Part shown: one piece after another, positions 238-54,448 of the stretch
How the letters are laid out: each line of letters opens with the position of its first letter
How positions within the stretch are numbered: the first letter of the stretch is position 1
Assembly (NCBI RefSeq): GCF_000214595.1
Contig: NZ_AFIG01000001.1
Coordinates: forward strand, 1,530,382 to 1,594,381
From: Methylophaga thalassica MP
Lineage (GTDB): Bacteria; Pseudomonadota; Gammaproteobacteria; Nitrosococcales; Methylophagaceae
Direction: 5' to 3'
Length of the DNA stretch: 64,000 nucleotides
Position numbers and translations under genes: made by a program
Notes under the pieces: generated by a model
What the model saw: the letters and a program-made list of their open reading frames with translations, nothing else
Database searches by the model: none
Told to the model about the DNA's origin: nothing

Positions 238-1508
238 ATGCGATTAGAATCACTCGCCTTACATCACGGCTATGAATCTGAACCCACCACTAAGTCGGCT
301 GCGTTCCGATTTACCAGACAACTTCTTACACTTTTGATAATACTCAGCATGGTGCAGATCTATTTGATCTGAAAGTCCCCGGTAATATTTACACACGTAT
401 CATGAACCCAACCAATGACGTGCTGGAAAAACGTCTGGCTGAAATGGAAGGTGGTATTGCTGGTCTGGCGGTAGCATCCGGTATGTCAGCTATTACTTAT
501 GCCATTCAGGCTATCGCTGAAGCAGGTGACAACATTGTTAGCAGCACCCAGCTTTACGGCGGCAGCTACAATTTGTTCGCTCATACCTGCCCACGACAAG
601 GTATTACAGTGCGCATGGCATCGTTTGATGACTATGACAAAATCGAAAGCCTGATTGACGATAAAACCAAAGCCTTATTCTGTGAATCTATCGGTAACCC
701 TGCCGGTAATATTGTTGATATACAACGTTGGGCAGAGATTGCTCACCGACATGGTGTGCCATTAATTGTTGATAATACGGTCGCCACACCTTACCTATGT
801 CGTGTCTTTGACCATGGTGCGGATATCGTGGTGCATTCATTAACTAAATATATCGGCGGTCATGGCACAACGGTTGGCGGCATGATTGTCGATTCAGGCC
901 GCTTTGACTGGGTAGCCAATAAAGAACGTTTCCCGATGCTAAACGAACCGGATCCTTCCTACCATGGCGTGATCTACACGGAGGCGTTAGGACCTGCCGC
1001 CTATATTGGTCGTTGTCGTGTTATTCCTCTGCGTAATACGGGTTCAGCCTTGTCTCCTCACAGTGCATTTTTATTAATGCAAGGTCTGGAAACCTTAGGC
1101 TTGCGTATGGAACGTCACTGTGAGAATGCATTGAAAGTGGCTAACTATTTACAACAGCACCCTAAAGTGGAATGGGTGAACTACGCCGCCTTGGAGAATA
1201 GCCCCTATCACGAAGTCTGTCAGAAAATCACCAAAGGTCAGGCCTCAGGCATTCTCAGCTTCGGTATCACTGGTGGCAAAGAAGCGGGTGCACGCTTTAT
1301 TGATGCCTTGCAGATGATTTTACGCTTGGTCAATATTGGTGATGCAAAATCACTGGCCTGCCACCCCGCAACCACTACACATCGACAATTAAGTCCGGAA
1401 GAGCTGGCAACCGCAGGCGTATCAGAAGACTTAGTGCGGATTTCGGTGGGTATTGAGCATATTGACGACATTATTGCCGACATTGCTCAAGCACTGGAAA
1501 AAGCATAA
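238..1508 (+). pseudogene. metY: O-acetylhomoserine aminocarboxypropyltransferase (metY), broken by a one-base deletion near the N-terminus
   Basis: The family makes homocysteine from O-acetylhomoserine and sulfide with PLP. A good ribosome site (GGAGAG, about 228) precedes ATG 238, which opens MRLESLALHHGYESEPTTKSAA and then runs out of frame to a stop at about 370. The expected continuation (VPIYQTTSYTFDNTQHGADL...) is found one frame over from 303, without a stop, into the long frame that ends at 1508. A single missing G near 303 (GCG-GTT read as GCGTT) explains this. Restored, the protein would be about 423 residues, the normal MetY length. The PLP lysine lies in HSLTKYIGGHG, residue 149 counted from ATG 402. 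An internal start at 402 would lose about 55 residues, including part of the active-site N-terminal arm. A true pseudogene and a sequencing error cannot be told apart here. Confidence 0.85.
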
Positions 1509-1528
1509 ACACAGTCTTGATTGATCTA

Positions 1529-1558
1529 TCTCAACCTGATCTCACGGTCAGGTTGAGA
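1529..1558 (+). terminator. Possible terminator hairpin after metY
   Basis: TCTCAACCTGA (1529-1539) pairs with TCAGGTTGAGA (1548-1558), an 11-bp stem with an 8-base loop, 20 bases after the metY stop. The following bases are only moderately T-rich, so termination efficiency is uncertain. Confidence 0.55.
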
Positions 1559-1624
1559 AGATTCATTTCCTCTACCACCTCCCAAGACTTATAATGGCAC
1601 CTCTTCAAACTGAGTACGTTCTCC

Positions 1625-2542
1625 GTGTCATCACCCAATTCCCATCAAAAAACGGCTGAACGTTCACCTCAGAAACGTTTACACCCAAGAAATCATCATA
1701 ATCAGGGGTATGACTTTCCGAGCTTGATAGCGAGCCACCCAACATTAGCACCATTTGTTTTTAACAATGCTTTTGGCAATCTGTCTATCGACTATAGCCA
1801 TGCTGAAGCCGTCAAGCACTTAAATGCAGCTTTATTGACATACCATTATCAAATCCAAGGCTGGGATATCCCCGAAGGAGCTCTCTGCCCACCGATTCCA
1901 GGGCGTGTTGACTACATCCATCACATTGCCGATTTATTAGGCGTTTCAGACCAAAATAACAATATCCGCATGCTGGATATCGGTATTGGCGCCAGTGGCA
2001 TTTATTCACTGCTAGCCAGTCACTGTTATGGTTGGCAATGTGTGGGAAGTGATATCAATCAGACCTCACTGAATAATGTCGCTACCATACTCAATAAAAA
2101 CAAAACCTTAGAGAGGCTTGTAACACTTCGTCATCAGCCAAACCCACATCAGATATTTGAAGGCATTATCAATCAAGGTGAGATGTTCGATGTCAGCGTA
2201 TGTAACCCACCTTTCCATGCCTCTGCTGAGGAAGCATCAAAAGCGTATCAACAGAAACAACATAATTTGAAGCTGAAAACCAATACAAACTCACTGAATT
2301 TTGGTGGTTCAGCTGCAGAATTATGGTGCAATGGCGGTGAGAAATTGTTTCTCAAAAAGATGATTCGTGAGAGTCAGGTGTTTGCTGAACAATGTCGCTG
2401 GTTTACCAGCCTAGTGTCAAAAATTGAAAACCTGACCCCATCAATCAAGTTAATCAAAAAACTGGGCGCCTCAGACATAAAGCAAATAGACATGCATCAA
2501 GGTAACAAAATCACACGCATCCTGGCATGGACGTTTCAGTAA
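1625..2542 (+). CDS. rlmF: 23S rRNA (adenine-1618-N6)-methyltransferase RlmF
   Basis: 305 residues, the usual size of RlmF (YbiN), which methylates N6 of A1618 in 23S rRNA. The N-terminus has the family pattern LHPRNHHNQGYDFPSL. A SAM-binding loop LDIGIGASG is at residues 117-125, and the N6-adenine methyltransferase catalytic motif NPPF is at 194-197, followed by HASAEEA. The start is a GTG; no earlier in-frame start aligns better with the family. It stands alone, between the metY hairpin and a convergent diguanylate cyclase gene. Confidence 0.92.
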   Translation: MSSPNSHQKTAERSPQKRLHPRNHHNQGYDFPSLIASHPTLAPFVFNNAFGNLSIDYSHAEAVKHLNAALLTYHYQIQGWDIPEGALCPPIPGRVDYIHHIADLLGVSDQNNNIRMLDIGIGASGIYSLLASHCYGWQCVGSDINQTSLNNVATILNKNKTLERLVTLRHQPNPHQIFEGIINQGEMFDVSVCNPPFHASAEEASKAYQQKQHNLKLKTNTNSLNFGGSAAELWCNGGEKLFLKKMIRESQVFAEQCRWFTSLVSKIENLTPSIKLIKKLGASDIKQIDMHQGNKITRILAWTFQ

Positions 2543-2556
2543 ACGGCCAACTGTAG

Positions 2557-3438
2557 CTAACGAACCTTCACCAGGTTGCGGCCAGCGGTTTTCGCCTGGT
2601 ACATGGCCTCATCAACTTTGTTTATCGCATCGTCAACACTATAGGCAGGATCAAGGGATGTCACACCAATCGAGGCCGTAACCTGTAATGTGTTACCTTC
2701 TTTATCGTAAATAATTTGCTGTTGTGCAATCATGCTGCGAATGCGCTCGGCAACCCGTTCAGCTTGTTCTAATGTAGTATTAGGCATGCAAATCAGAAAT
2801 TCTTCGCCACCATAGCGATAAAGCTGATCGTAAGGTCGCAATACCTGCTGTAAACACGCTACTGTTTTAATTAATACGTCATCGCCCACGGAGTGACCAT
2901 AGTTATCATTCACCTGCTTAAAATGGTCCAGATCAAGCATAGCCAATGCACTGGGTTGCAGGCTTCGCTTTGCCATAGCATGTTCTTTATTTAACTCAGC
3001 CTGCATACCGGCTCGGGTCTGAGCCCCCGTTAAAGGATCTAAGTTTTGTACCAAGTTGGCGAATTCATGACGTAATGCTTGGAATTGTGTGCGCATTTTT
3101 TCCAGGTCATGGTTAAATTCATCAAACATAGTGACTGGTATCGCTTGTTCAGACACAACAAGTTCGATAAGTTGTTTAGCGCTTTTATGCATATTCTCAT
3201 GGGCATGCCCTAACGACACAAAGGTGGGATGGTCCTGAATCAGCTCGACATGAGATGTGTAGAACCACTCACCAAACTCACACAATTTATAAGCATCGTT
3301 TCTTAGATCTTTTTCATCAGGTGGCACGCGAGACACTAAGACTCGTAAAAGATCTTGGTACCATTTCTGATGACTTTCTATCGCTTTATCAATCTCATCA
3401 ATAACAAAGCGTAATTGTTGGTGAATCACCGCGGCCAT
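2557..3438 (-). CDS. dgcZ: Zinc-sensing diguanylate cyclase, DgcZ-like (CZB + GGDEF)
   Basis: 293 residues, matching E. coli DgcZ (YdeH) in length and layout. An N-terminal CZB zinc-binding helical domain (about 1-125) carries the four ligands at H23, C53, H80 and H84, the last two in an HAHENMH context. A GGDEF domain (about 133-293) makes c-di-GMP from two GTP; its signature is GGEEF at 210-214. An inhibitory I-site RPYD (201-204) sits the canonical five residues upstream, which predicts product feedback; as I recall it, E. coli DgcZ is degenerate there. In the family, zinc occupancy lowers cyclase activity. It is soluble and monocistronic. Confidence 0.9.
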   Translation of the reverse strand: MAAVIHQQLRFVIDEIDKAIESHQKWYQDLLRVLVSRVPPDEKDLRNDAYKLCEFGEWFYTSHVELIQDHPTFVSLGHAHENMHKSAKQLIELVVSEQAIPVTMFDEFNHDLEKMRTQFQALRHEFANLVQNLDPLTGAQTRAGMQAELNKEHAMAKRSLQPSALAMLDLDHFKQVNDNYGHSVGDDVLIKTVACLQQVLRPYDQLYRYGGEEFLICMPNTTLEQAERVAERIRSMIAQQQIIYDKEGNTLQVTASIGVTSLDPAYSVDDAINKVDEAMYQAKTAGRNLVKVR

Positions 3439-3536
3439 GCCTGCCCATCCAAATTGGAAATAAATATGGAGTCATCGATGTTTGACCCTCTTTTGACTAT
3501 TCCATATTAGTGTTTGCTAAACAAGCCTTATTTGAT

Positions 3537-4715
3537 TTATCCAATCATGACGCGTTTAATGCGTTCAGCCGCTGCTACCAGCAAAGACTCGTCTCGTGTA
3601 TATGCAAAACGGCAATGTGACTCTGCTTGATAATGACCAAAATCTAAGCCTGGTGTGATAGCCACACCAGCTTGTTTAAGCAGGAACTGAGATAAGGCCA
3701 TACTATCGGGTATCTGCTCACTCAGTAGTGCTGAACAATCTGCGTAAAGATAAAAAGCCCCCTGCGGTGTGACGGGTATGGAGAAGCCAATATCTTTTAA
3801 TAATGGCAGCAATGTATTGCGGCGTCGCTCGAAAGCCTGGCGACGCTGTTCCAGTATCGATAAAGTATCAGTCTGGAAAGCCGCCAGTGCAGCATATTGC
3901 GACATGGTAGCGGGTGCAAGAAACAAGTTCTGGGCTAACTTATCCATCACCTCTGTGTACCCTTCCGGCACCACTAACCAACCCAGGCGCCATCCAGTCA
4001 TGCCAAAGAATTTGGAAAAGCTGTTCACCACGAAGACTTGATCACTCACTGATAATGCAGTCGGGGCATGAAAACCATCGTAAGTGAGACCATGATAGAT
4101 TTCATCCACCACCAGATGCCCGGATTTTTTGGCTACCGCTGCTGCTAATCCACTAAGTTCTTGTTGAGTTAATACCGTACCGGTTGGGTTAGATGGCGAA
4201 GCGACTAAAGCCATCGCCGTGTTATCATCCCAATATTGTTCAATATGCTGAGCCGTAAGTTGATATTGGTGATTTGCATCAACAGGAATACTGTTGACGC
4301 GTCCTTCAACAAATCTGGCAAAGTGTTTATTGCAGGGATAACCGGGATCCGCCAACAAGACCTGCTTCTGTTTCTCGAGTAACGCCCCCATCACTAGAAG
4401 TAATGCACCAGACGCGCCTGGCGTAACAATAATACGCTCAGCGTTTACCTTTACCTGATACTGCTGTTCATACCAGCCAGCAATCGCTTCTCTTAATTCA
4501 GGTAAACCACATGCGGGTGTGTAATGTGTTTTGCCTTGCTTTAAGGCATTCATTCCAGCTTCGATAATCGGTTGAGGTGTTTCAAAATCAGGCTCACCGA
4601 CTTCCATATGAATGATATTCTGCCCCGCCGCTTCCAGCTGTTTAGCCTGAGCCAAAATATCCATAACATGGAAAGGAGAAATAGCGTTTGCGCGACTGGC
4701 GACTTTTTTGGTCAT
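3537..4715 (-). CDS. PLP-dependent class I/II aminotransferase
   Basis: 392 residues with fold-type I aminotransferase landmarks. These are NPTG (176-179) for the cofactor phosphate/substrate region, DEIYHGL (204-210) for the PLP pyridine contact, SFSK with the Schiff-base lysine K235, and TGWRLGW with R243. It belongs to the AspC/AlaT-like group with the typical N-terminal SRANAISPFHVMDI pattern. The amino donor and acceptor cannot be told from sequence. It is transcribed away from dksA, with 332 bases between them. Confidence 0.85.
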   Translation of the reverse strand: MTKKVASRANAISPFHVMDILAQAKQLEAAGQNIIHMEVGEPDFETPQPIIEAGMNALKQGKTHYTPACGLPELREAIAGWYEQQYQVKVNAERIIVTPGASGALLLVMGALLEKQKQVLLADPGYPCNKHFARFVEGRVNSIPVDANHQYQLTAQHIEQYWDDNTAMALVASPSNPTGTVLTQQELSGLAAAVAKKSGHLVVDEIYHGLTYDGFHAPTALSVSDQVFVVNSFSKFFGMTGWRLGWLVVPEGYTEVMDKLAQNLFLAPATMSQYAALAAFQTDTLSILEQRRQAFERRRNTLLPLLKDIGFSIPVTPQGAFYLYADCSALLSEQIPDSMALSQFLLKQAGVAITPGLDFGHYQAESHCRFAYTRDESLLVAAAERIKRVMIG

Positions 4716-5047
4716 GCCGTATCCGTTTGAGTTTTAAGGTGAAATAACAGGCGGCTAGTTTAACAAATCCAGATGCTTTAACAGCAGCTATTGAAAAGGC
4801 TTGCCAATGCACATACATAGGCGTACTAATCAACTGTTGAAAAAGATAGACAGGTGCGCGTTTCAGTGCCATGCTCTCTGGTTTTTAATCAGACTGATGT
4901 CGAAACGAACAGAAAAAGTAATAATTTTTTATTGTTTAATAATCAATTATCAGCACACCTGTAAATCGACGTTGATTTTAATTTTGCACAAGCTGGGCGC
5001 ATCTGGTATAGATTCGCCCTTGGTTTTAGAAAGTATGAGGTTTCAAG
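4716..5047. other. Intergenic region between aminotransferase and dksA
   Basis: 332 bases without a credible gene. The dksA promoter lies at its right end (4984-5012). The rest is AT-rich, and I see no RNA gene, strong hairpin or repeat in it. Confidence 0.6.
4984..5012 (+). promoter_or_regulatory. sigma-70 promoter of dksA
   Basis: TTGCAC (4984-4989), a 17-base spacer, then TATAGA (5007-5012). The bases after the -10 (TTCGCCC) form a fairly GC-rich discriminator, a feature associated with stringent control. It ends 35 bases before the dksA start codon. Confidence 0.7.
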
Positions 5048-5470
5048 ATGGAAAACACTCAAGTCGACACTAAGATTGCTCCTTATCAGGAGAAAGCAGG
5101 CGAAGAGTACATGAACGACGCTCAGATTGAGCATTTTCGCCATATTTTAGAAAACTGGAGAGCACAGCTTCGTGCTGAGGTCGACCGTACGGTTCATCAT
5201 ATGCAGGATGAAGCAGCCAACTTCCCTGACCCGAATGATCGTGCTACTCAGGAAGAAGAGTTCACGCTTGAACTTCGCACGCGTGACCGTGAACGTAAAT
5301 TAATCAAGAAGATTGATGAGTCGCTGGTTGATTTGGACAAAGGTGATTACGGTTATTGCGAATCTTGCGGTACTGAAATTGGCATTCGTCGTTTAGAAGC
5401 CCGTCCTACAGCAACGCTATGCATTGACTGTAAAACTCTGGACGAAATCAGAGAGAAAAACCGTATCTGA
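5048..5470 (+). CDS. dksA: RNA polymerase-binding transcription factor DksA
   Basis: 140 residues. DksA enters the RNA polymerase secondary channel and, with ppGpp, resets rRNA and amino-acid promoters. The long coiled coil (about 25-100) has the tip sequence DPNDRA with the key acidic residues D61 and D64 and A66. A four-cysteine zinc finger follows (C104, C107, C125, C128), so this is the zinc-containing paralogue. It has its own promoter upstream and a bidirectional terminator downstream. Confidence 0.97.
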
Positions 5471-5531
5471 TTCGTCTGATATTAAGGCGTTGTTCTAGGC
5501 ATCAGGATTGATGCTCCAAGACCTCATACGC

Positions 5532-5562
5532 AAAAAAAAGCCCCGTTAACCGGGGCTTTTTT
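5532..5562. terminator. Bidirectional terminator between dksA and tamB
   Basis: A GC-rich stem AGCCCCG/CGGGGCT with a TTAAC loop is flanked by eight A on the left and six T on the right. It can therefore stop dksA on the plus strand and tamB on the minus strand. Confidence 0.9.
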
Positions 5563-5566
5563 GTCT

Positions 5567-8500
5567 CTAGTCTTTTTTAGGTTCATAGGTATAAAGTAAA
5601 TCTACCCCACTTTCTGTGCCTGACTCGGCTTTTAACGACCATATTTTACTAAGTTGATAACGCAGCTCGACACTACTGACGGAATCGAACACACCAATAC
5701 CGTAACTCAGATAAAGTTTTGGTGATAAATACTTACCAATGGTCAGTGCTGCATTTTCCTTGCTGTCGCCAGTAATAGAAAACTCATCCAGACCAAAGGT
5801 ATTGGCAATATCATCTCCTATCATCGCCCCGTTTTGCAGGCCAATTCCTGTGGCCGCTGAAGCGAGTAAGGCGGCATCGGTTGCACTTGCTTGTTCTATG
5901 GGTTTCCCCAAAATTAAATACGATAAAATATTGTCCTGACTCATATCTGGGTCAGAGAACAACGTCGCCTGAGGTGAGCTGACATTACCTTCGATGTATA
6001 AACCAGCGGTGACCTCTTTTCCGTGCCTGACGGCTTTAATATCAAGTTCAGGGTTATCAATGGGACCAGAAAAGCGAATTTTGCCATTATCTACTTTTAA
6101 TAACTGACCATAAGCAACATAACTGCCGTCTTTAATCGTGATCTGACCATTCCCTAGCAATACATCATTAGGGTTACCAGATACATGTAAATCCCCTGTC
6201 AATCGTCCCTGGAAGCCCAATGCTTTTATCTGTACTTTATCGCCAAGGCTGACGGTTAAATCGACTTGCGTTTGTGATTCGGGCTGCTCTTCTGTGGTGT
6301 TATTTGAAATAACACGGACATCCGCACTCGGGCTCACTGATGAATTAAACCGGGTGGGTTCAATTAATGCTCTTGGAATAGCCACTTTACCGGTAACCTT
6401 GGTCAGCTCGGGGGTAACCAGAATCCTCATATCAGGTTCAGCAATGACTAATGCTTCGGGTGTATTCATCACTTCCAGTTGCTTACCACTGACGTTTGCA
6501 GTGAGTTCCCAACCGGTTTCATTTAAGGCATAGCTACCGGTAGCATTGAGCTTGCCTTCACCTGAATCAGCCGTTAATGTCAGGTCAACCTTATTCAGAT
6601 TACCGTTAATCTCAGCCTGAATATTCTTTAATAAAATGCCGGCATCAATAATACTGACCTCACCCTGTTCTAACTGTGCCTTACCTAAAATTTCAGGTTG
6701 AGCAATGGTGCCGCCGATATCGATATTAAGCTTAAACTTTCCCTTAAGCCCTTCTATCGCCGGATGCGTTAATTGCAGAGCAGCCAGGCTTTCAATATTG
6801 GTTCTTACTTCACCTGTTAAAGCTGCTTGGCTGGCATCAGCCATTAAGACATCGATACTTGCCGTTTCAACATGGGCGTTGATAGCGGACACACCATCGA
6901 TTTGCGGCTCCAGATTAAGTGTTGCTGTGGTATGTGTTTTATCTAATTGGTACTCAATAAAAGTATTCTTCAATACAATAGCTTGCTTCTGATTGAGCTC
7001 AGACTGATTCAGTTGAACAGAGGCATTTTCCAGCTGAATTTTGCCTTTCCCGGTTATTACATTATGGTTATCTCCTGCGAGTGCAAACTGCCCTTTAAGC
7101 TGGCCTTTTATTTGCTCTAACTCAGCAGAAAATTGTTCAAATAGACTCAATGGTAATTCTGCAAAGTCACCTGAGGTTTGCCATTGATCCTGAGAGTGAC
7201 TGGCTGTAATACATAAATTGCCTTTCTCAGACTGCCAGCAATGACGAGGAATATCTTGCTGTTTCGCATTCAGCATTAACTTGCCTTGTTGAGTCAGATG
7301 CCAAACACCTGCCTGGTCATTACCAAAGTCAAACTGGCGGAATTGTCCTGTCCAAGTGGATTGATTTAGCTGCCCATCAGCAGCGACATCAATATTTATC
7401 GCTTTCGATGCCAGGTTCAGTTGTATCTGATGTGATTGCTGTTTCCCCGTGACATCAAGATCAACCCGATCAATCAACAGCTCTGATAAGGTCAGTCCTG
7501 TGAGCGTAACGCGGCTATCAATATTGGCATTCGCTTGCAAAGTGAAGTCAATATCCCCATTAATAGCTTCGACTTTTGTCGTATCAAAAGCTAACGACTT
7601 TCCGTCAACATTGGCAAGAATACGTGGTTGCTCAAGACTGCCTGTCAAACTGCCTGAGCCATTAAGACGTCCTTTAAGGGTCGGGTAAAAATCTTGTAAG
7701 TCAGGTGAGTTCAGTGTCCAGTTAACGTTCATCTGATCTTGCTGAAGCTTTCCTTTCACTGAAAGTGTGGATTCTGCCGATCTCGCAGAAAAATGATCAA
7801 TCAACACATCGTTGGCCTTAGAGCTGAGTTTTACCTCAATAGCCAAAGGTTTCTGTCTTAAAGAACCTGATAATTTTAAAGTATCCAGTACCACATTCAG
7901 CTGATTATCTGTTTGACTGACGGTAAGTGGTGCCTGACCAGATAACGATCCAGGCCATTCTGGCAAAATAATGCCCGGATTAAATTGATTTACCGTCAAA
8001 TGACCATCCACTAGTGATTCACCAGCCCAGGCGAGTCTGCCCTGATAATCAATTTCGCCTTTACCTAATTGAATATGTAACTGACTTTGCTCAAAACCAA
8101 TATCTGTTTTGCCATCACCGTTGGCATTGATTGTCATCGCGACATCATTCACCGTTAGATCGGTTTCTGAGCGTAACGTCATTGTGTTGGTATTGCCTAA
8201 CAAGTTTAACTGGCCTTGTTTTATATAAACGGCCACTTCAGATAATGATGCTGGCAGTCTTAAATGCTGCCAATTTGCAGCGAGCTCATAATTTATCGGG
8301 CTTGATGACCAGTCAACTTGGCCGTGAGTAGTGATCTTACCGTCAAAGCCGTTAATATTCAGTTGCTTGAGCGAGGCGGATGTGTCATCACCCTGCAACT
8401 GAGCCGTCAGTGTTAAAGGTTCATTTTCATAGGTCACTACAGTGTTAATACTGGCCTGATAATCCTTTATTGACCCTGTAAGATTGACTTCTCCATGCTC

Positions 8501-9601
8501 GCTTTTGACTACAACCTTATCCCCTTGTAATGGCCACTGTAATTGCTGCCATACGGCCTTGAGATCAAAGGCTATTTCAGGGGTGTCCGTGTTGACCTTA
8601 CCTGATAGCGTGATTATTTTTTCGTTATCTGGCTGTGCTTTTGCTTGAATATGCCATTCAGCCATATCTTCACTGTCAGCATTCACATCAATATCGATAG
8701 CCGGTATATCCGTTCGTTTCACCGTCGCTTGCAGCGAACTTTTCAGCCTTGTCAGCGTACCTTCAGCGTGTAGCTTGACATTATCAAGCTGCAATTCCTG
8801 TTCAGGCACCAACTTACTGACATCAATGGCTTGTGCTGATGTTGTCAAAGTCCAGCTCAGAGAAGAGGTGAGATCATTAACGACCAGTGTTTGTTCTGAT
8901 TTGAGTGGTTGCTGAATCTCTTGAGTCAGTACAAGTTGCTGTTGGTTACCCGTTATTTGACCGTTTATCGTCAATTTTTCAGGAAAAACCTTCAACAAAT
9001 CGACATGGTAATTCAAACTAACAGCATGCTGCTCTGTTAAGCCAATACGACCATCAAGCTGGAACTGCACATCTTGCTGCGATAGAGATAAGGTCTGTAT
9101 CACCAGTTCATCAGATATCGTTTCCGCCTTGAGTTGAGCCTCTTCAACTAAGGTCGTTTTTGCTGAGGCATTATCTAACGTCACATCTCGGATGATAAGT
9201 TGGTCCAGCGTGATTCGAACTGGTAAGGCAATATCCGGTAAGTTAATCTCAGCATTTACATCACTGGCTTTGTCAACCTGCTCAACCGGGCTTATCGTTA
9301 TCCCCTGGACAGCTAATCGTTGGATATGTAAATGGCGCTTAACTAATTCAGCAGGCCTCCAACTAAATTGCAGTTGTTCAATAGCAATAGCTGTTGCCTG
9401 TTCTGGCTGATACTCAATATCTGACAAAACAAGCTCGCCAAATAATTCGCCTTTGGCTTCACCCACTTTTAAAGCCGGAACCATTTTGTTAACGATATTG
9501 AGTGTAGTATTCAGACCCGATTGGGTGGTGAGCAACCAGACCATCCCGGCAAGGAAAGCCACAAAGACAAACATGATGGCGAAAACAATTTTCTTGCGCA
9601 T
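5567..9601 (-). CDS. tamB: Translocation and assembly module subunit TamB
   Basis: 1344 residues, within the range of the long TamB/AsmA-like family. An N-terminal signal anchor (about 5-25) holds it in the inner membrane. The central region is a long beta-rich repetitive span that in the family forms a hydrophobic groove across the periplasm. The C-terminal DUF490 domain (roughly 1000-1344) includes the typical LSYLILGKP segment and a final set of barrel-like strands that contacts TamA. It lies 2 bases downstream of tamA, so the two are translationally linked. Known roles are autotransporter/outer-membrane protein assembly and phospholipid transport to the outer membrane. Confidence 0.93.
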   Translation of the reverse strand: MRKKIVFAIMFVFVAFLAGMVWLLTTQSGLNTTLNIVNKMVPALKVGEAKGELFGELVLSDIEYQPEQATAIAIEQLQFSWRPAELVKRHLHIQRLAVQGITISPVEQVDKASDVNAEINLPDIALPVRITLDQLIIRDVTLDNASAKTTLVEEAQLKAETISDELVIQTLSLSQQDVQFQLDGRIGLTEQHAVSLNYHVDLLKVFPEKLTINGQITGNQQQLVLTQEIQQPLKSEQTLVVNDLTSSLSWTLTTSAQAIDVSKLVPEQELQLDNVKLHAEGTLTRLKSSLQATVKRTDIPAIDIDVNADSEDMAEWHIQAKAQPDNEKIITLSGKVNTDTPEIAFDLKAVWQQLQWPLQGDKVVVKSEHGEVNLTGSIKDYQASINTVVTYENEPLTLTAQLQGDDTSASLKQLNINGFDGKITTHGQVDWSSSPINYELAANWQHLRLPASLSEVAVYIKQGQLNLLGNTNTMTLRSETDLTVNDVAMTINANGDGKTDIGFEQSQLHIQLGKGEIDYQGRLAWAGESLVDGHLTVNQFNPGIILPEWPGSLSGQAPLTVSQTDNQLNVVLDTLKLSGSLRQKPLAIEVKLSSKANDVLIDHFSARSAESTLSVKGKLQQDQMNVNWTLNSPDLQDFYPTLKGRLNGSGSLTGSLEQPRILANVDGKSLAFDTTKVEAINGDIDFTLQANANIDSRVTLTGLTLSELLIDRVDLDVTGKQQSHQIQLNLASKAINIDVAADGQLNQSTWTGQFRQFDFGNDQAGVWHLTQQGKLMLNAKQQDIPRHCWQSEKGNLCITASHSQDQWQTSGDFAELPLSLFEQFSAELEQIKGQLKGQFALAGDNHNVITGKGKIQLENASVQLNQSELNQKQAIVLKNTFIEYQLDKTHTTATLNLEPQIDGVSAINAHVETASIDVLMADASQAALTGEVRTNIESLAALQLTHPAIEGLKGKFKLNIDIGGTIAQPEILGKAQLEQGEVSIIDAGILLKNIQAEINGNLNKVDLTLTADSGEGKLNATGSYALNETGWELTANVSGKQLEVMNTPEALVIAEPDMRILVTPELTKVTGKVAIPRALIEPTRFNSSVSPSADVRVISNNTTEEQPESQTQVDLTVSLGDKVQIKALGFQGRLTGDLHVSGNPNDVLLGNGQITIKDGSYVAYGQLLKVDNGKIRFSGPIDNPELDIKAVRHGKEVTAGLYIEGNVSSPQATLFSDPDMSQDNILSYLILGKPIEQASATDAALLASAATGIGLQNGAMIGDDIANTFGLDEFSITGDSKENAALTIGKYLSPKLYLSYGIGVFDSVSSVELRYQLSKIWSLKAESGTESGVDLLYTYEPKKD

Positions 9602-9603
9602 GA

Positions 9604-11349
9604 TTATAAATCCGGCCCAATCACAATATGCAGAGCAATCGGTTCATCTTTCTCTGACAGGCCTTTCGCCAAATCAACCCGAATCAATCCTACTGGGGAG
9701 CGCCAGCGAATACCGACACCCACACTATATTCAATGGGATCACTAAAACTATTAAACGCATTCCCAAAATCAGAAAAAACAGCCGCCCCCCAATCCTTTA
9801 GAAACATATGCTCAAGTTCGACACTACCCACAGCCAGATAGCGTCCACCAACCACATCACCTTCTGAATTCTCAGGCCCCAGTGACTGGTAATCGAACCC
9901 TCTGATACTGTTGTCACCGCCAGTAAAGAAACGTAGAGAGCTGGGTAATCGTTCAAAGTCACTCACTTCGGTTGCCCCAATTGAGCCCCGGGTGATAAAG
10001 CGACTGTTCTCACCAAAAGCCTGAATCAGTTTGCCTCTGACCACAATCTGACCAAAGGTAATATCAGATAATAATGATTCAGATGCACCAGAGAGTGTCA
10101 GGGATAAACGCGCACCATGTTTTGTATAAATGGTATTGTCAGCCCAGGTACGGCTCCAGGATATGCCGGGAATAAGTAAAAAAGTTGACTCACTTTCATC
10201 GGAAATATCAAAATCTTCTTGTAAGAATTTAATTGAGCCGGTTTCATCCCAGCCCCATCTTTCACGTTTATAGTAGCTACCTACCGCAAAGGATTCACTT
10301 TCACTGGTGTCGGTATCTTGCTGTTTATATTCTGTATTGAAGCCAACGGTATTAATCGTTTCACTCCAGAATGGCATCACATAATCGGCACTTAGTGTAT
10401 TGGTGACTTGGGATAAACGTGCATCGGCTTGTAATCGGTGTCCACGTTTATTCACATAACGATTTTCCCAGCCAAGACTTAATCTTGCTCCAGTATCAGT
10501 GCCATAACCAAGACCAGCCGTATACAATTGTTTTGGTTTTTCTTCCAATGAGATATCGATGGGTACTTGCCCATCTTGTCTTTCAGCGCGCTGGGTACGA
10601 ACTGACACAGAATCAAAGTAACCACTATTACTGAGATTTTTTCTCAGTGTTAATGCTTTGTTATCCAAATAGGGTTCACCTTCCTTATAAGGTAATAACC
10701 TGTCTAATAATGGGTCGCCAACAACGGTATCCGGGAATAAGGTCTTACCAAAGCGATAACGCACACCAGAGTCATAATGCAGATAAACATTGGCGATATG
10801 ATTTGGTACATCGACTTCAACTGATGCTTGGGTCAACTTTCCATCAAAATAGCCCCGGCTCATAGCCAAGGTTAATATTGATTTTTTCGCGGCTTCGTAC
10901 TGTTGGTGATTGAGTTGCTGATCTTTTTGAAGTGGGAACGCTTTCTTTAGTTTTATAAACTCTGCATCCTCTGCAGCTTCGCCATTAAACGCGATGTCAA
11001 CCAATGCCAGCTTAACCGGTTCACCTAAATCGATGGTGTAAGTAGCTTGCCAATTGTCTTTATCGAGCGAGAGTTCACTGCTGATTTCTGGCTGGTAATA
11101 ACCAAAGACAGTTAACATCGTGCGTAATTCTTCAGGTGCCGATTTATGTAATTTTTCCAGATAACGTTTATTCAGGCGTTCACTTTCTTTTTGTTTTTCG
11201 ATAGAGAGCCCGTTGAGCAGGGTCTTTCCCATTGAAGCATCCACACCATTGATTTTTACAGTTAATTTAATGGGATCAGCAAGAAGTACTGAACTGAAGA
11301 ACAGTAAGAAAATAAAGAATAGTCTGTGAATAAAGGCTATTGCAGGCAA
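9604..11349 (-). CDS. tamA: Outer-membrane translocation and assembly module subunit TamA
   Basis: 581 residues, an Omp85-family barrel. It has a signal peptide (about 1-24, ending VLLA-DP), three POTRA-like segments (about 27-270), then a 16-strand BamA-type barrel (about 275-581) containing GDNSIRGF and ending with the strand HIVIGPDL. It works with TamB, whose gene follows directly. No promoter was pinned down in the 83 bases separating it from the araC-type gene upstream on the same strand. Confidence 0.93.
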   Translation of the reverse strand: MPAIAFIHRLFFIFLLFFSSVLLADPIKLTVKINGVDASMGKTLLNGLSIEKQKESERLNKRYLEKLHKSAPEELRTMLTVFGYYQPEISSELSLDKDNWQATYTIDLGEPVKLALVDIAFNGEAAEDAEFIKLKKAFPLQKDQQLNHQQYEAAKKSILTLAMSRGYFDGKLTQASVEVDVPNHIANVYLHYDSGVRYRFGKTLFPDTVVGDPLLDRLLPYKEGEPYLDNKALTLRKNLSNSGYFDSVSVRTQRAERQDGQVPIDISLEEKPKQLYTAGLGYGTDTGARLSLGWENRYVNKRGHRLQADARLSQVTNTLSADYVMPFWSETINTVGFNTEYKQQDTDTSESESFAVGSYYKRERWGWDETGSIKFLQEDFDISDESESTFLLIPGISWSRTWADNTIYTKHGARLSLTLSGASESLLSDITFGQIVVRGKLIQAFGENSRFITRGSIGATEVSDFERLPSSLRFFTGGDNSIRGFDYQSLGPENSEGDVVGGRYLAVGSVELEHMFLKDWGAAVFSDFGNAFNSFSDPIEYSVGVGIRWRSPVGLIRVDLAKGLSEKDEPIALHIVIGPDL

Positions 11350-51508: not shown

Positions 51509-51585
51509 GCGCCCGTAGCTCAGCTGGATAGAGTACCTGGCTACGAACCAGGCGGTCGCACGTTCGAATCGTGCCGGGCGCGCCA
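51509..51585 (+). tRNA. tRNA-Arg(ACG), copy 1
   Basis: 77 bases with encoded CCA. Acceptor GCGCCCG pairs with CGGGCGC; the anticodon loop CTACGAA gives ACG (read as ICG after deamination). T-arm CGTTCGAATCG. Confidence 0.97.
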
Positions 51586-51601
51586 TTTAAAGTACATAAT
51601 C

Positions 51602-51635
51602 AAGCAGTCACCGAGAAATCGGGACTGCTTTTTTA
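51602..51635 (+). terminator. Terminator between the two tRNA-Arg genes
   Basis: AAGCAGTC/GACTGCTT outer stem with an inner CCGA-GAAA-TCGG hairpin, followed by six T. It cuts the second tRNA-Arg off from the first promoter. Confidence 0.8.
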
Positions 51636-51661
51636 TTTCAATAATAGATTTCAGATAGATA

Positions 51662-51738
51662 GCGCCCGTAGCTCAGCTGGATAGAGTACCTGGCTACGAA
51701 CCAGGCGGTCGCACGTTCGAATCGTGCCGGGCGCGCCA
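51662..51738 (+). tRNA. tRNA-Arg(ACG), copy 2, serving as integration site
   Basis: Identical over all 77 bases to copy 1. It lies behind the terminator, and I see no strong promoter in the 26 bases between them. Its 3' half plus 7 following bases are duplicated exactly at 53547-53598, marking it as the attachment site of the downstream insertion. Confidence 0.95.
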
Positions 51739-51745
51739 TCTGTCT
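51694..51745 (+). repeat. attL-like direct repeat (inside intact tRNA-Arg copy 2)
   Basis: 52 bases from CTACGAACC in the anticodon arm through CCA and TCTGTCT. They are identical to 53547-53598; the flanking bases on both sides differ. Confidence 0.85.
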
Positions 51746-51836
51746 TGTGTAGTCGAAAATATACCATATCAATCGACACAAACTATCTGCATAGAATGTT
51801 AAGTGTTCAGACGAAAAATCTACATTTCACTCCATC

Positions 51837-52301
51837 TTAATATCTAATCAGCCTTCCAACTCCTGCAAAAACACTTCCATCAACAACAGCATCCAAAAGT
51901 GCCTCATCATCACTTTTAGCCTTCTCAACTAAGTCACTCATAGATTCACTAAAATCGAAATAGAACGCATTTGATGAAGTACATTCATAAAGAGAGAGAA
52001 ATAAAGATTTCTCTTCCGTGGTAAGTTCATCTTCATTCAGCGGGTCAGCTTTATCATTCAAATATTCGAATATCATTTTATTAGGATCCTCCGCTTTTGA
52101 AGCGTCATTAATTACTGTGTCTAGACCTGATATTATTAAGATTGCAATTGTTACAAATATGACCAAAGAAAAGAGTATTGAAGAAGCTCTTCGACTTTTC
52201 TTCTTTTCACGCGCAATATCAGCAATCTCATCTATTTCAGTATTAAGGAAACGAGCATAGAACTTTTTTACACTTGAATGATTTGGACTAGACATTTTCA
52301 T
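51837..52301 (-). CDS. Island protein A: single-span membrane protein of unknown function
   Basis: 154 residues. A basic cytoplasmic N-terminus (REKKKSRRAS, 31-40) leads into one membrane helix (about 41-60, ILFSLVIFVTIAILIISGL), then an acidic soluble C-terminal domain of about 90 residues, probably outside the cytoplasm by the positive-inside rule. No family is recognised. It is divergent from the HEPN-like gene with 46 bases between them. Base composition is AT-richer than the neighbouring core genes. It could be a membrane effector or sensor; that is a guess. Confidence 0.65.
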   Translation of the reverse strand: MKMSSPNHSSVKKFYARFLNTEIDEIADIAREKKKSRRASSILFSLVIFVTIAILIISGLDTVINDASKAEDPNKMIFEYLNDKADPLNEDELTTEEKSLFLSLYECTSSNAFYFDFSESMSDLVEKAKSDDEALLDAVVDGSVFAGVGRLIRY

Positions 52302-52347
52302 GTAACCTAAATACTTTTAGTTCTCTCATCGGTTAGGTGATATAGAA

Positions 52348-53355
52348 ATGATTTTTAGAAGATTCGCTATTCTAGAATTAAATGGAAAAATAAACCTCTC
52401 AAAAATTGCTTCAGAAATAAAGGTTTCTCAACATGAAAGCGTATTCAGATTAGTTCATTCACAGGATGATGAGTCTCTTACATTAATACTCCACTCCGAT
52501 ATTATTCTTCCCATTGAAGAAAATGTATATCCCTCAATAAACTATTTCAGCTCCGTTAATAGTAAGGTCGAAAAACGAATTGAAATTGCAGCAGCATTAA
52601 TTTCAGTATCTCTCAATGCATCCAAAAAACTTCGTTCATCGTTTCCTTGTTTTGCACTCAAAGCAGAAAATAGTCAGGATAGAGAATTCTTAGATGGACT
52701 TGACGATAATGACACCTCAAACTTATTCTCAGAAAAAATATTCCTCAAATCCGCCTACCTGCCATTAAATGAACAAACCAGTCCAATTTACCTGGACAGA
52801 ATTGATGGCGTCATATCTTTCTCAGAAGTACTCAGTTCGAACACAGCTATTTCACAATTTAAAGAATTAATTAGGTTCTTTGAAATAGCTTTTGGAGCTA
52901 CATTCATTAGCTGCATAAAAAAAATATTTAAGACTATAGAATCTAGCGGGCTAGGATACACACAGAATGAAATTCGTAACTGGTACAAATTAAGAGGTGG
53001 TGCAATTCATGGAGATAGAAGTAAAAGTGATTTAGTCTACGAAAGCGAAGTCATGCATGTAGTTGAAAGAATCATACAGGCTGCAATCATTGTTCTAATC
53101 AGAAAAAAAAACTGGCATAAGAATGATGGAGAGCTACGAAATGAGTGGATACCACCCTTTAGAACTGATAATGAAGGGAAATCAATAGGTACGACTAATG
53201 AAGAAATATTTGTTGATATGAGAGAATCATCCGACGTTTTTGGTTCATGGCTTTTGCATGGAATTAAAGGAATCCATTTTGACCCCACGAAAGATAATTG
53301 GTGGGTACCAGGCAAAGATGAGGTGCCCACTGATTTGGGATCAAATATTGTATAA
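52348..53355 (+). CDS. Island protein B: HEPN-like (Apea-type) domain protein of unknown function
   Basis: 335 residues. Residues 170-252 form a helical domain with WYKLRGGAIHGDR, giving an R216-x4-H221 motif like the R-x4-6-H catalytic motif of HEPN ribonucleases and the Apea-like HEPN group, then a long helix VMHVVERIIQAAIIVLI. The N-terminal 160 residues and the last 80 (ending GSNIV) are unassigned. No signal or membrane segment is seen. HEPN proteins are often toxins or defence nucleases, but many are inactive scaffolds, so the role is inference. It is the largest gene of the tRNA-Arg island. Confidence 0.7.
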   Translation: MIFRRFAILELNGKINLSKIASEIKVSQHESVFRLVHSQDDESLTLILHSDIILPIEENVYPSINYFSSVNSKVEKRIEIAAALISVSLNASKKLRSSFPCFALKAENSQDREFLDGLDDNDTSNLFSEKIFLKSAYLPLNEQTSPIYLDRIDGVISFSEVLSSNTAISQFKELIRFFEIAFGATFISCIKKIFKTIESSGLGYTQNEIRNWYKLRGGAIHGDRSKSDLVYESEVMHVVERIIQAAIIVLIRKKNWHKNDGELRNEWIPPFRTDNEGKSIGTTNEEIFVDMRESSDVFGSWLLHGIKGIHFDPTKDNWWVPGKDEVPTDLGSNIV

Positions 53356-53872
53356 AAAGCGCGAGATAGGGTAGATTGCCAAAATATCTGTTTTTTCAGC
53401 CTATTTTTAATTATTAGTGAACCCAAAAATGATTATATTCATGACTAAATGAAACTATTTCTAGTAAAGGTGAGGCTAAATATAAAAGTTTGGCTAGAAC
53501 TGCAGGCAACTGTTTTAATTAAACACTTAACCAATCTAAAAGCCAACTACGAACCAGGCGGTCGCACGTTCGAATCGTGCCGGGCGCGCCATCTGTCTCT
53601 CCACTACCCCTTCCCCACAATCATCAATCATAATCATTTATGATGGCTTGTTTCAGTCATCTGTTCTGAAAAACTATCTTCTGATGAGATTCACTCTATT
53701 AATAAGCGTGAGTTAGAAATATCATTTTTTTAACTCACAGAAATAATCAACCAATAAAAATAAAGGTACTTCTGCTAACTATAGCCTAGGCACCTCTATT
53801 ATTTGACTATCGAATGGTGAGCCGATCAGATGAAGCTATCGAGCTATCTTGACGCAACCTGCAAGAAAAGAA
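53356..53872. other. Intergenic region holding the right end of the island
   Basis: 517 bases without a believable gene. The only recognisable feature is the tRNA-Arg fragment at 53547-53598. A 64-codon open frame at 53449-53643 runs through that fragment and is rejected as coding. Confidence 0.6.
53547..53598 (+). repeat. attR-like direct repeat (tRNA-Arg 3' fragment)
   Basis: An exact copy of 51694-51745. It lacks the acceptor 5' half and D-arm, so it is not a functional tRNA. The preceding bases (AAAGCCAA) are unrelated to tRNA-Arg. Confidence 0.85.
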
Positions 53873-54448
53873 TTATCTATCCGGATTGATCAGGATTTTT
53901 ATATCATCCATCACGACATCAGATGAAAATTGAATAGCAAATTCAGGATGAATCGCATTCTTTATTTTCTCGGCTATCGATTGCGACTGATAACTCTGTT
54001 CTACTGTAAAACGTATTAAAGGCACTCTGGCAACTCGCAAGACATTGTCTAGAAAATCATCACGCAGTCGTCTCGCAGGCTTTTCATGTGAACTATCGTC
54101 AAGTTCTATCGCACATAAAATATCGGCTGTTTTCGTGTCAGTCAGAACAAAATCAACGTGCTTGGACTGAATTTTGTTAAAGGCTTTTTGCCACTCAGAT
54201 TTAGACTTCGTTTGCTTTACGGTCACGATATCAGCCAGTCGCACTTTAGAAGAAATATCATACTGTCCATCGACGGCAAGTTTCAGGCTATGTTGGAATG
54301 AGAGTTCTGCCGGAGTGAGTAATGATGGTTGTTTACTGTAGGGATATTCTGTTGTCTTTTCTGTTTTATCCTTGTCATCCTTCATCAAGGCGAGAAGCAG
54401 AACAGCCACTAATATGACAATAAACAATCCAATAAAAACAAATGACAT
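53873..54448 (-). CDS. DUF2726 domain protein with an N-terminal membrane anchor
   Basis: 191 residues. A membrane helix at 3-23 is followed by a charged linker and the DUF2726 domain (about 40-170): SLLTPAELSFQHSL, KVRLADIV, HVDFVLTDTKTADILCAIELDDSSH and PLIRF. The domain is a restriction-endonuclease-like fold with D...E-x-D residues (D98, E114, D116 region). Topoisomerase-linked and cytoplasmic roles have been suggested for the family, and the exact function is unknown. Confidence 0.82.
   Translation of the reverse strand: MSFVFIGLFIVILVAVLLLALMKDDKDKTEKTTEYPYSKQPSLLTPAELSFQHSLKLAVDGQYDISSKVRLADIVTVKQTKSKSEWQKAFNKIQSKHVDFVLTDTKTADILCAIELDDSSHEKPARRLRDDFLDNVLRVARVPLIRFTVEQSYQSQSIAEKIKNAIHPEFAIQFSSDVVMDDIKILINPDR

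Follow-up and report, generated by a model that had tools for sequence, protein, structure and literature searches.

The island that occupies a tRNA-Arg(ACG) gene of Methylophaga thalassica MP, at positions 51694 to 53598 of the window (by which we mean the whole 64,000-nucleotide stretch analysed), is very probably non-autonomous and derived by deletion from a small integrative element, one whose insertion site in this bacterial family is the 3' end of this tRNA gene. Below, G000 is the genome that holds the window, other G-numbers denote the genomes compared with it, and L-numbers denote fetched loci.

The host gene identified by ARAGORN (51662..51738, plus strand) is the second of two tandem tRNA-Arg(ACG) copies, the identical first copy lying at 51509-51585, and a tRNA-Ser gene together with this pair stands upstream of the island. 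The first-pass annotation had described an exact 52-bp repeat, composed of the 3' part of the second tRNA-Arg plus 7 flanking bases, recurring about 1.85 kb away, and a maximal repeat search confirmed it. The repeat is exact and maximal at 52 bp, with a left copy, attL, at 51694..51745 and a right copy, attR, at 53547..53598 (both plus strand; 1853 bp from start to start), its first 45 bp being the 3' part of tRNA-Arg(ACG) number 2 and its last 7 bp flank. All remaining repeats of at least 40 bp in the window come from the tandem tRNA-Arg copies at 51509-51585 and 51662-51738. The same annotation was also right that the DNA between the repeats is AT-richer and holds two divergent genes: G+C is 34.3% in 51746-53543 vs 43.6% in the window, only 1 of 1245 same-length sliding segments in the window is as low or lower, and two divergent ORFs (51837-52301, minus; 52348-53355, plus) fill the island. 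The tandem tRNA-Arg pair (window 51509-51738) is also present in G095, G013, G008, G022, G006, G030 and G028, and most other examined loci have a single copy.

An empty site, which had been suggested as something to look for in related strains, exists in G095, a genome of the same species. There the 52 bp are present once at the site and both flanks are kept; the two stretches of the window matched by G095 share the 52 bp, the joined flanks align as one 2152-bp match at 96.4% identity, and the interior DNA of the island has no match in G095. Other cargos at the same site, also suggested at the outset, are seen in relatives, including the close relative G013. On the far side of the island, homology to G013, G008 and G022 resumes at a DUF2726 gene (window 53873-54448), and the DNA between the tRNA and this gene differs from the window in each of these three genomes.

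Directly inside attL lies a 3' stub of a tyrosine-integrase gene (51746..51871, minus strand) carrying in-frame stops, with a protein-level match over 51770-51871, about codons 295-329. In G017 the first gene directly after the same tRNA-Arg is a full 354-aa tyrosine integrase (Pfam Phage_integrase, 4.5e-35), and in the DNA alignment of the left ends this gene ends where the window stub lies. The left 126 bp of the island match the 3' end of the integrase gene (72.5% DNA identity to G017), and tblastn aligns the stub with the G017 integrase at 57% identity with 2 stops (E 2.7e-4). A stub of the same type lies beside the same tRNA copy in G013, and the window stub, which starts at 51871, has one of its two in-frame stops placed as in G013. 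Since the G013 stub extends further into the integrase gene, the deletions in G000 and G013 differ. Being short (35 codons, E 2.7e-4 alone), the window stub draws most of its support from G013 and from the DNA alignments. The island had initially been described as integrase-less; none of the ten places in G000 that match the integrase family lies within it, but an integrase 3' stub, which that first description had no means of seeing, is present.

The element integrase and its remnants recur at this tRNA in the family. A tblastn search with the G017 integrase covered 57 loci plus the window region, 58 sequences in all, of which 16 gave matches, comprising 3 to a different integrase (~26%), 7 full or long genes and 6 stubs only, the window and G013 included. 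Two extra integrase stubs lie behind the second repeat in G017 and G059, and a DNA search with the left end of the island found it in 4 of 56 other family genomes. An integrase with 75% identity or more to that of G017 is present in 7 of 57 family genomes, G017 included; among these, G063, G070 and G060 have in-frame stops (near the very C-terminus in G070 and G060), and the genes of G004 and G064 are partial. Integrases of 42-45% identity pass E 1e-60 in three further family genomes. Neither G000 (best-scoring match 29%; none at E 1e-60) nor, at E 1e-60, G095 showed a close relative of the element integrase, and the search of viral contigs gave 53 relatives at 27-56% identity. A second integrase type, ~26% identical, lies at the same tRNA-Arg in L075, L078 and L112 (G032, G018 and G058).

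Next to the stub, ORF1 (51837..52301, minus strand; 154 aa) is a shortened homologue of a 254-aa gene in the integrase-bearing element of G059 (BLASTP, 40% identity, E 5e-31, in a single comparison). Read from the tRNA, the G059 element consists of the integrase, a 450-aa gene with weak similarity to replication-initiation and endonuclease families, the 254-aa gene, a TPR gene and a protein kinase. Formally the BLASTP alignment runs to the last residue of ORF1; on our reading the dense identity appears to stop near 51870, beside the stub start, the last 11 residues aligning weakly. The final codons of ORF1 overlie the integrase stub out of frame, and the exact deletion point in ORF1 is a matter of judgement. 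The integrase 3' stub and the shortened ORF1 that remain show that the island once had an integrase. Three weak profile matches of ORF1 were set aside: PADLOC RTas1465 (0.015; PADLOC gives no cut-off), and Pfam AA_permease_2 (0.067) and NCBIfam SLATT_1 (0.021), both below the curated cut-off.

The other end of the island carries a conserved non-coding right arm (53404..53546, plus strand), 79% identical over 132 bp to G004 and with arm matches in six other genomes. With window 53440-53598 as query, matches run past the repeat into the arm in G004, G059, G025, G031, G078 and G003 at 74-81% identity (repeat included), and with the arm alone five of these six genomes match at 72-83%, G003 falling under the cut. 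Aligned by eye, the arms contain a common block and CTAAA-like repeats, seen also in G017, G063 and G075, and these repeats are possible integrase arm sites. A second arm type appears in the alignment for G058, G032 and G021. By its right arm, and by the integrase sequence (as a stub) beside attL, we assign the window island to a family of tRNA-Arg elements.

To place the island among its relatives we examined tRNA-Arg(ACG) loci with at least part of the 3' end in 49 of 57 family genomes, its own included; left out of the 49 were G001, G024, G026, G065, G071, G074, G077 and G066, whose fetched locus was another tRNA-Arg. A second partial tRNA repeat on the same contig bounds an island in 9 of the 49 (G000, G017, G025, G031, G059, G061, G063, G075 and G078), a count made with the G031 tRNA cut by a contig end and with contig breaks hiding further repeat-bounded islands. 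Judged by repeat positions, these nine islands span roughly 0.8 to 7.9 kb. G017 and G059 have a full integrase of the same type and G063 has one with an in-frame stop. In the other six no integrase of this type lies inside the repeats, although a 213-aa ORF in G078 belongs to the same Pfam family. The elements of G017, G059 and G063 are like the window island in site, integrase type and right arm, and that of G059 shares the ORF1 homologue; unlike it, they keep the integrase gene (with the in-frame stop in G063) and are 6-8 kb long. The G017 locus (L046, oriented 970-11200) is a tandem: after an element with a full integrase come a second repeat, another integrase stub, this one with a stop, and a KAP NTPase of 1141 aa. 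In L037 and L038 (G008 and G022, about 1200-7000) some 5.8 kb follow the same tRNA-Arg without a second repeat, with ORFs that we read as metE-like, LysR-like and reductase-like, and L036:2171-2217 is a Guanidine-II riboswitch.

The cargo that we scanned was chosen, so the survey is not an unbiased sample, and within it several tRNA-Arg elements of the family carry genes that are, by sequence, defence-like or of toxin-antitoxin type. In G013 a reverse transcriptase stands beside the stub, and the right repeat is no longer recognisable; the protein matches group II-like and defence RT models below the NCBIfam cut-offs, and no Rfam intron family was called at the locus. The cargo in G059 is a kinase plus a TPR protein; in G017 it is an AAA ATPase and, past the second stub, the KAP NTPase; in G078 an OLD or Gabija-like pair plus a UvrD-like ORF; in G061 an HNH protein resembling type IV restriction enzymes; in G031 a ParDE pair; and in G063 a PADLOC candidate protein. 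The G025 island has an 84-aa ORF only, a 741-aa protein of G004 gave no Pfam match and no clear family, and a 290-aa protein of G063 likewise has no clear family. As for the expectation that minimal islands of this kind often carry defence genes, defence-like cargo is present in several siblings; for the cargo gene of the window a defence role would be by association.

That gene (52348..53355, plus strand) is intact, encodes a 335-aa protein with an R-x4-H motif (R216, H221) and is our proposed defence gene. Searches of Pfam, PADLOC, PHROGs and NCBIfam assign the protein to no family, and by sequence it has no relative in PDB. A homologue was found in 1 of 94 other genomes (0 of the 55 other family genomes among them) and, in a class-wide sample, in 1 of 368 other genomes, again G082; genome_contigs gave one homologue, in a place consistent with the same genome. 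In G082 it is a lone gene between ORFs that we read as rpoH-like and bioD-like. No relatives were found in viral contigs (pattern search), plasmid records or phage records. Both R216 and H221 are invariant between the protein and its one homologue, evidence that is weak because two sequences can share such a pair by chance. An identity as HEPN RNase, first assumed from this motif, is unsupported by the Pfam profiles, which gave no match for either protein, or by hhalign, which returned a probability of 0.2% against HEPN_Apea proteins (shallow alignments, no positive control, HEPN_Apea only; the comparison set, retrieved through PF18739, had four members, of which one had matched under the family cut-off). 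The motif is shared with the HEPN RNase families (PMC3710099), in which the residue after R is typically polar, whereas it is glycine in the window protein and histidine in its relative. A HEPN RNase identity is possible. Structure models from one and from two sequences had mean pLDDT of 36 and 31, too poor for searching. By analogy with the cargo of sibling islands, we put the chance that the protein acts in phage defence, possibly as an RNase, at about even. A narrow literature search for defence cargo in integrase remnants returned eukaryote work only, from which we claim no absence from print; what is new here is the cargo protein, not the island type.

Several other origins for such an island were weighed against integrase loss. 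The tandem tRNA-Arg genes, here and in some relatives, might suggest a decayed tRNA duplication without any mobile element, the refuting alternative that the first-pass annotation had named. It does not fit: the third copy comprises just the 3' part and runs on its inner side into the conserved right arm, and G095 lacks the whole segment, having one repeat copy at the empty site. We give this reading almost no credence. That annotation had otherwise left the choice between a satellite-like element and a cassette left after integrase loss, and the evidence favours the latter, through the stub with its stops and the shortened element gene. A phage satellite or mobilisable element relying from the start on a helper's integrase, with none of its own, would agree with the small size of the island and with two ORFs that match no integrase or packaging family, but the stub and the shortened ORF1 demonstrate a past integrase and the cargo is unmatched in phage or plasmid records and in viral contigs (pattern search); we regard it as highly improbable.

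More serious, though still unlikely in our view, is a non-autonomous cassette that remains mobile, its ends held by selection for an integrase acting in trans and its cargo exchanged between cassettes. The right end (arm and repeat) is 74-81% identical in six other genomes from two genera, six of the nine repeat-bounded islands lack the element's own integrase type, the G000 and G013 stubs share a stop and yet are followed by different cargo, and tandem arrangements occur in G017 and G059. Against this, neither G000 nor G095 has a close relative of the integrase, and the stub identity between G000 and G013 (~80%) comes fairly close to the identity of the flanks (84-91%), which fits plain inheritance. 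We would likewise bet against the wider proposal that the tRNA-Arg islands with a dead or missing integrase are a living non-autonomous family, served by an integrase in trans and swapping defence cargo between species, with the 335-aa protein as a new single-gene defence factor.

Under the preferred reading, a deletion derivative, a small integrative element would have inserted at the tRNA-Arg(ACG) 3' end. With the G059 gene order taken as the intact model, which is a model and not an ancestor, a single internal deletion would then have eliminated the bulk of the integrase gene together with the replication-like gene and the end of ORF1, joining a point in ORF1 near 51870 to the stub start and dropping the genes between, with the 335-aa gene as the retained payload. 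Since both attachment sites are kept, the remnant could still leave precisely, by recombination between the 52-bp repeats or through a related integrase in trans. The stub probably predates the split of the G000 and G013 species, because the G013 stub, beside the same tRNA copy, shares one of the stops, and G095 would have lost the island later. Stub identity between G000 and G013 (~80%) lies near that of the left flank (91%, tRNAs included) and the right flank (84%), which fits inheritance from a common ancestor followed by precise loss in G095. Loss in G095 fits better than gain in G000 but is unproven, the polarity not being firm because the family search gave one other genome of the species (G095) alone; the island may instead have arrived independently in G000 and G013.

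The island offers a worked example of an integrative element decaying to its attachment ends and one cargo gene, for which relatives that have an integrase, intermediate forms and the empty site provide the comparison. The tRNA-Arg site appears to be a hotspot with turnover of defence-like and toxin-antitoxin genes, and the very rare, uncharacterised 335-aa protein is a candidate worth testing against phages.

Finally, two known systems resemble this one. Cis-mobilizable elements (CIMEs) have lost their integration genes, keep attL and attR and occur in tandem with other elements at a single site (PMC5704250). The window island, also without integration genes and with both attachment sites, can be called CIME-like, its integrase being reduced to a 3' stub with stops. 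CIMEs are, however, defined there as decayed conjugative or mobilisable elements (PMC5704250), whereas the intact relatives of the window island show no conjugation gene or relaxase among the element genes scanned (part of the ORFs), the extra gene being weakly replication-like. The islands at ssrA in Dehalococcoides share one hotspot and direct repeats, 16 with and 15 without integration genes (PMC3146451). The tRNA-Arg islands are alike in hotspot, direct repeats and forms with and without integration genes, and differ in that a serine recombinase and a tmRNA gene are involved there, and a tyrosine integrase and tRNA-Arg here.
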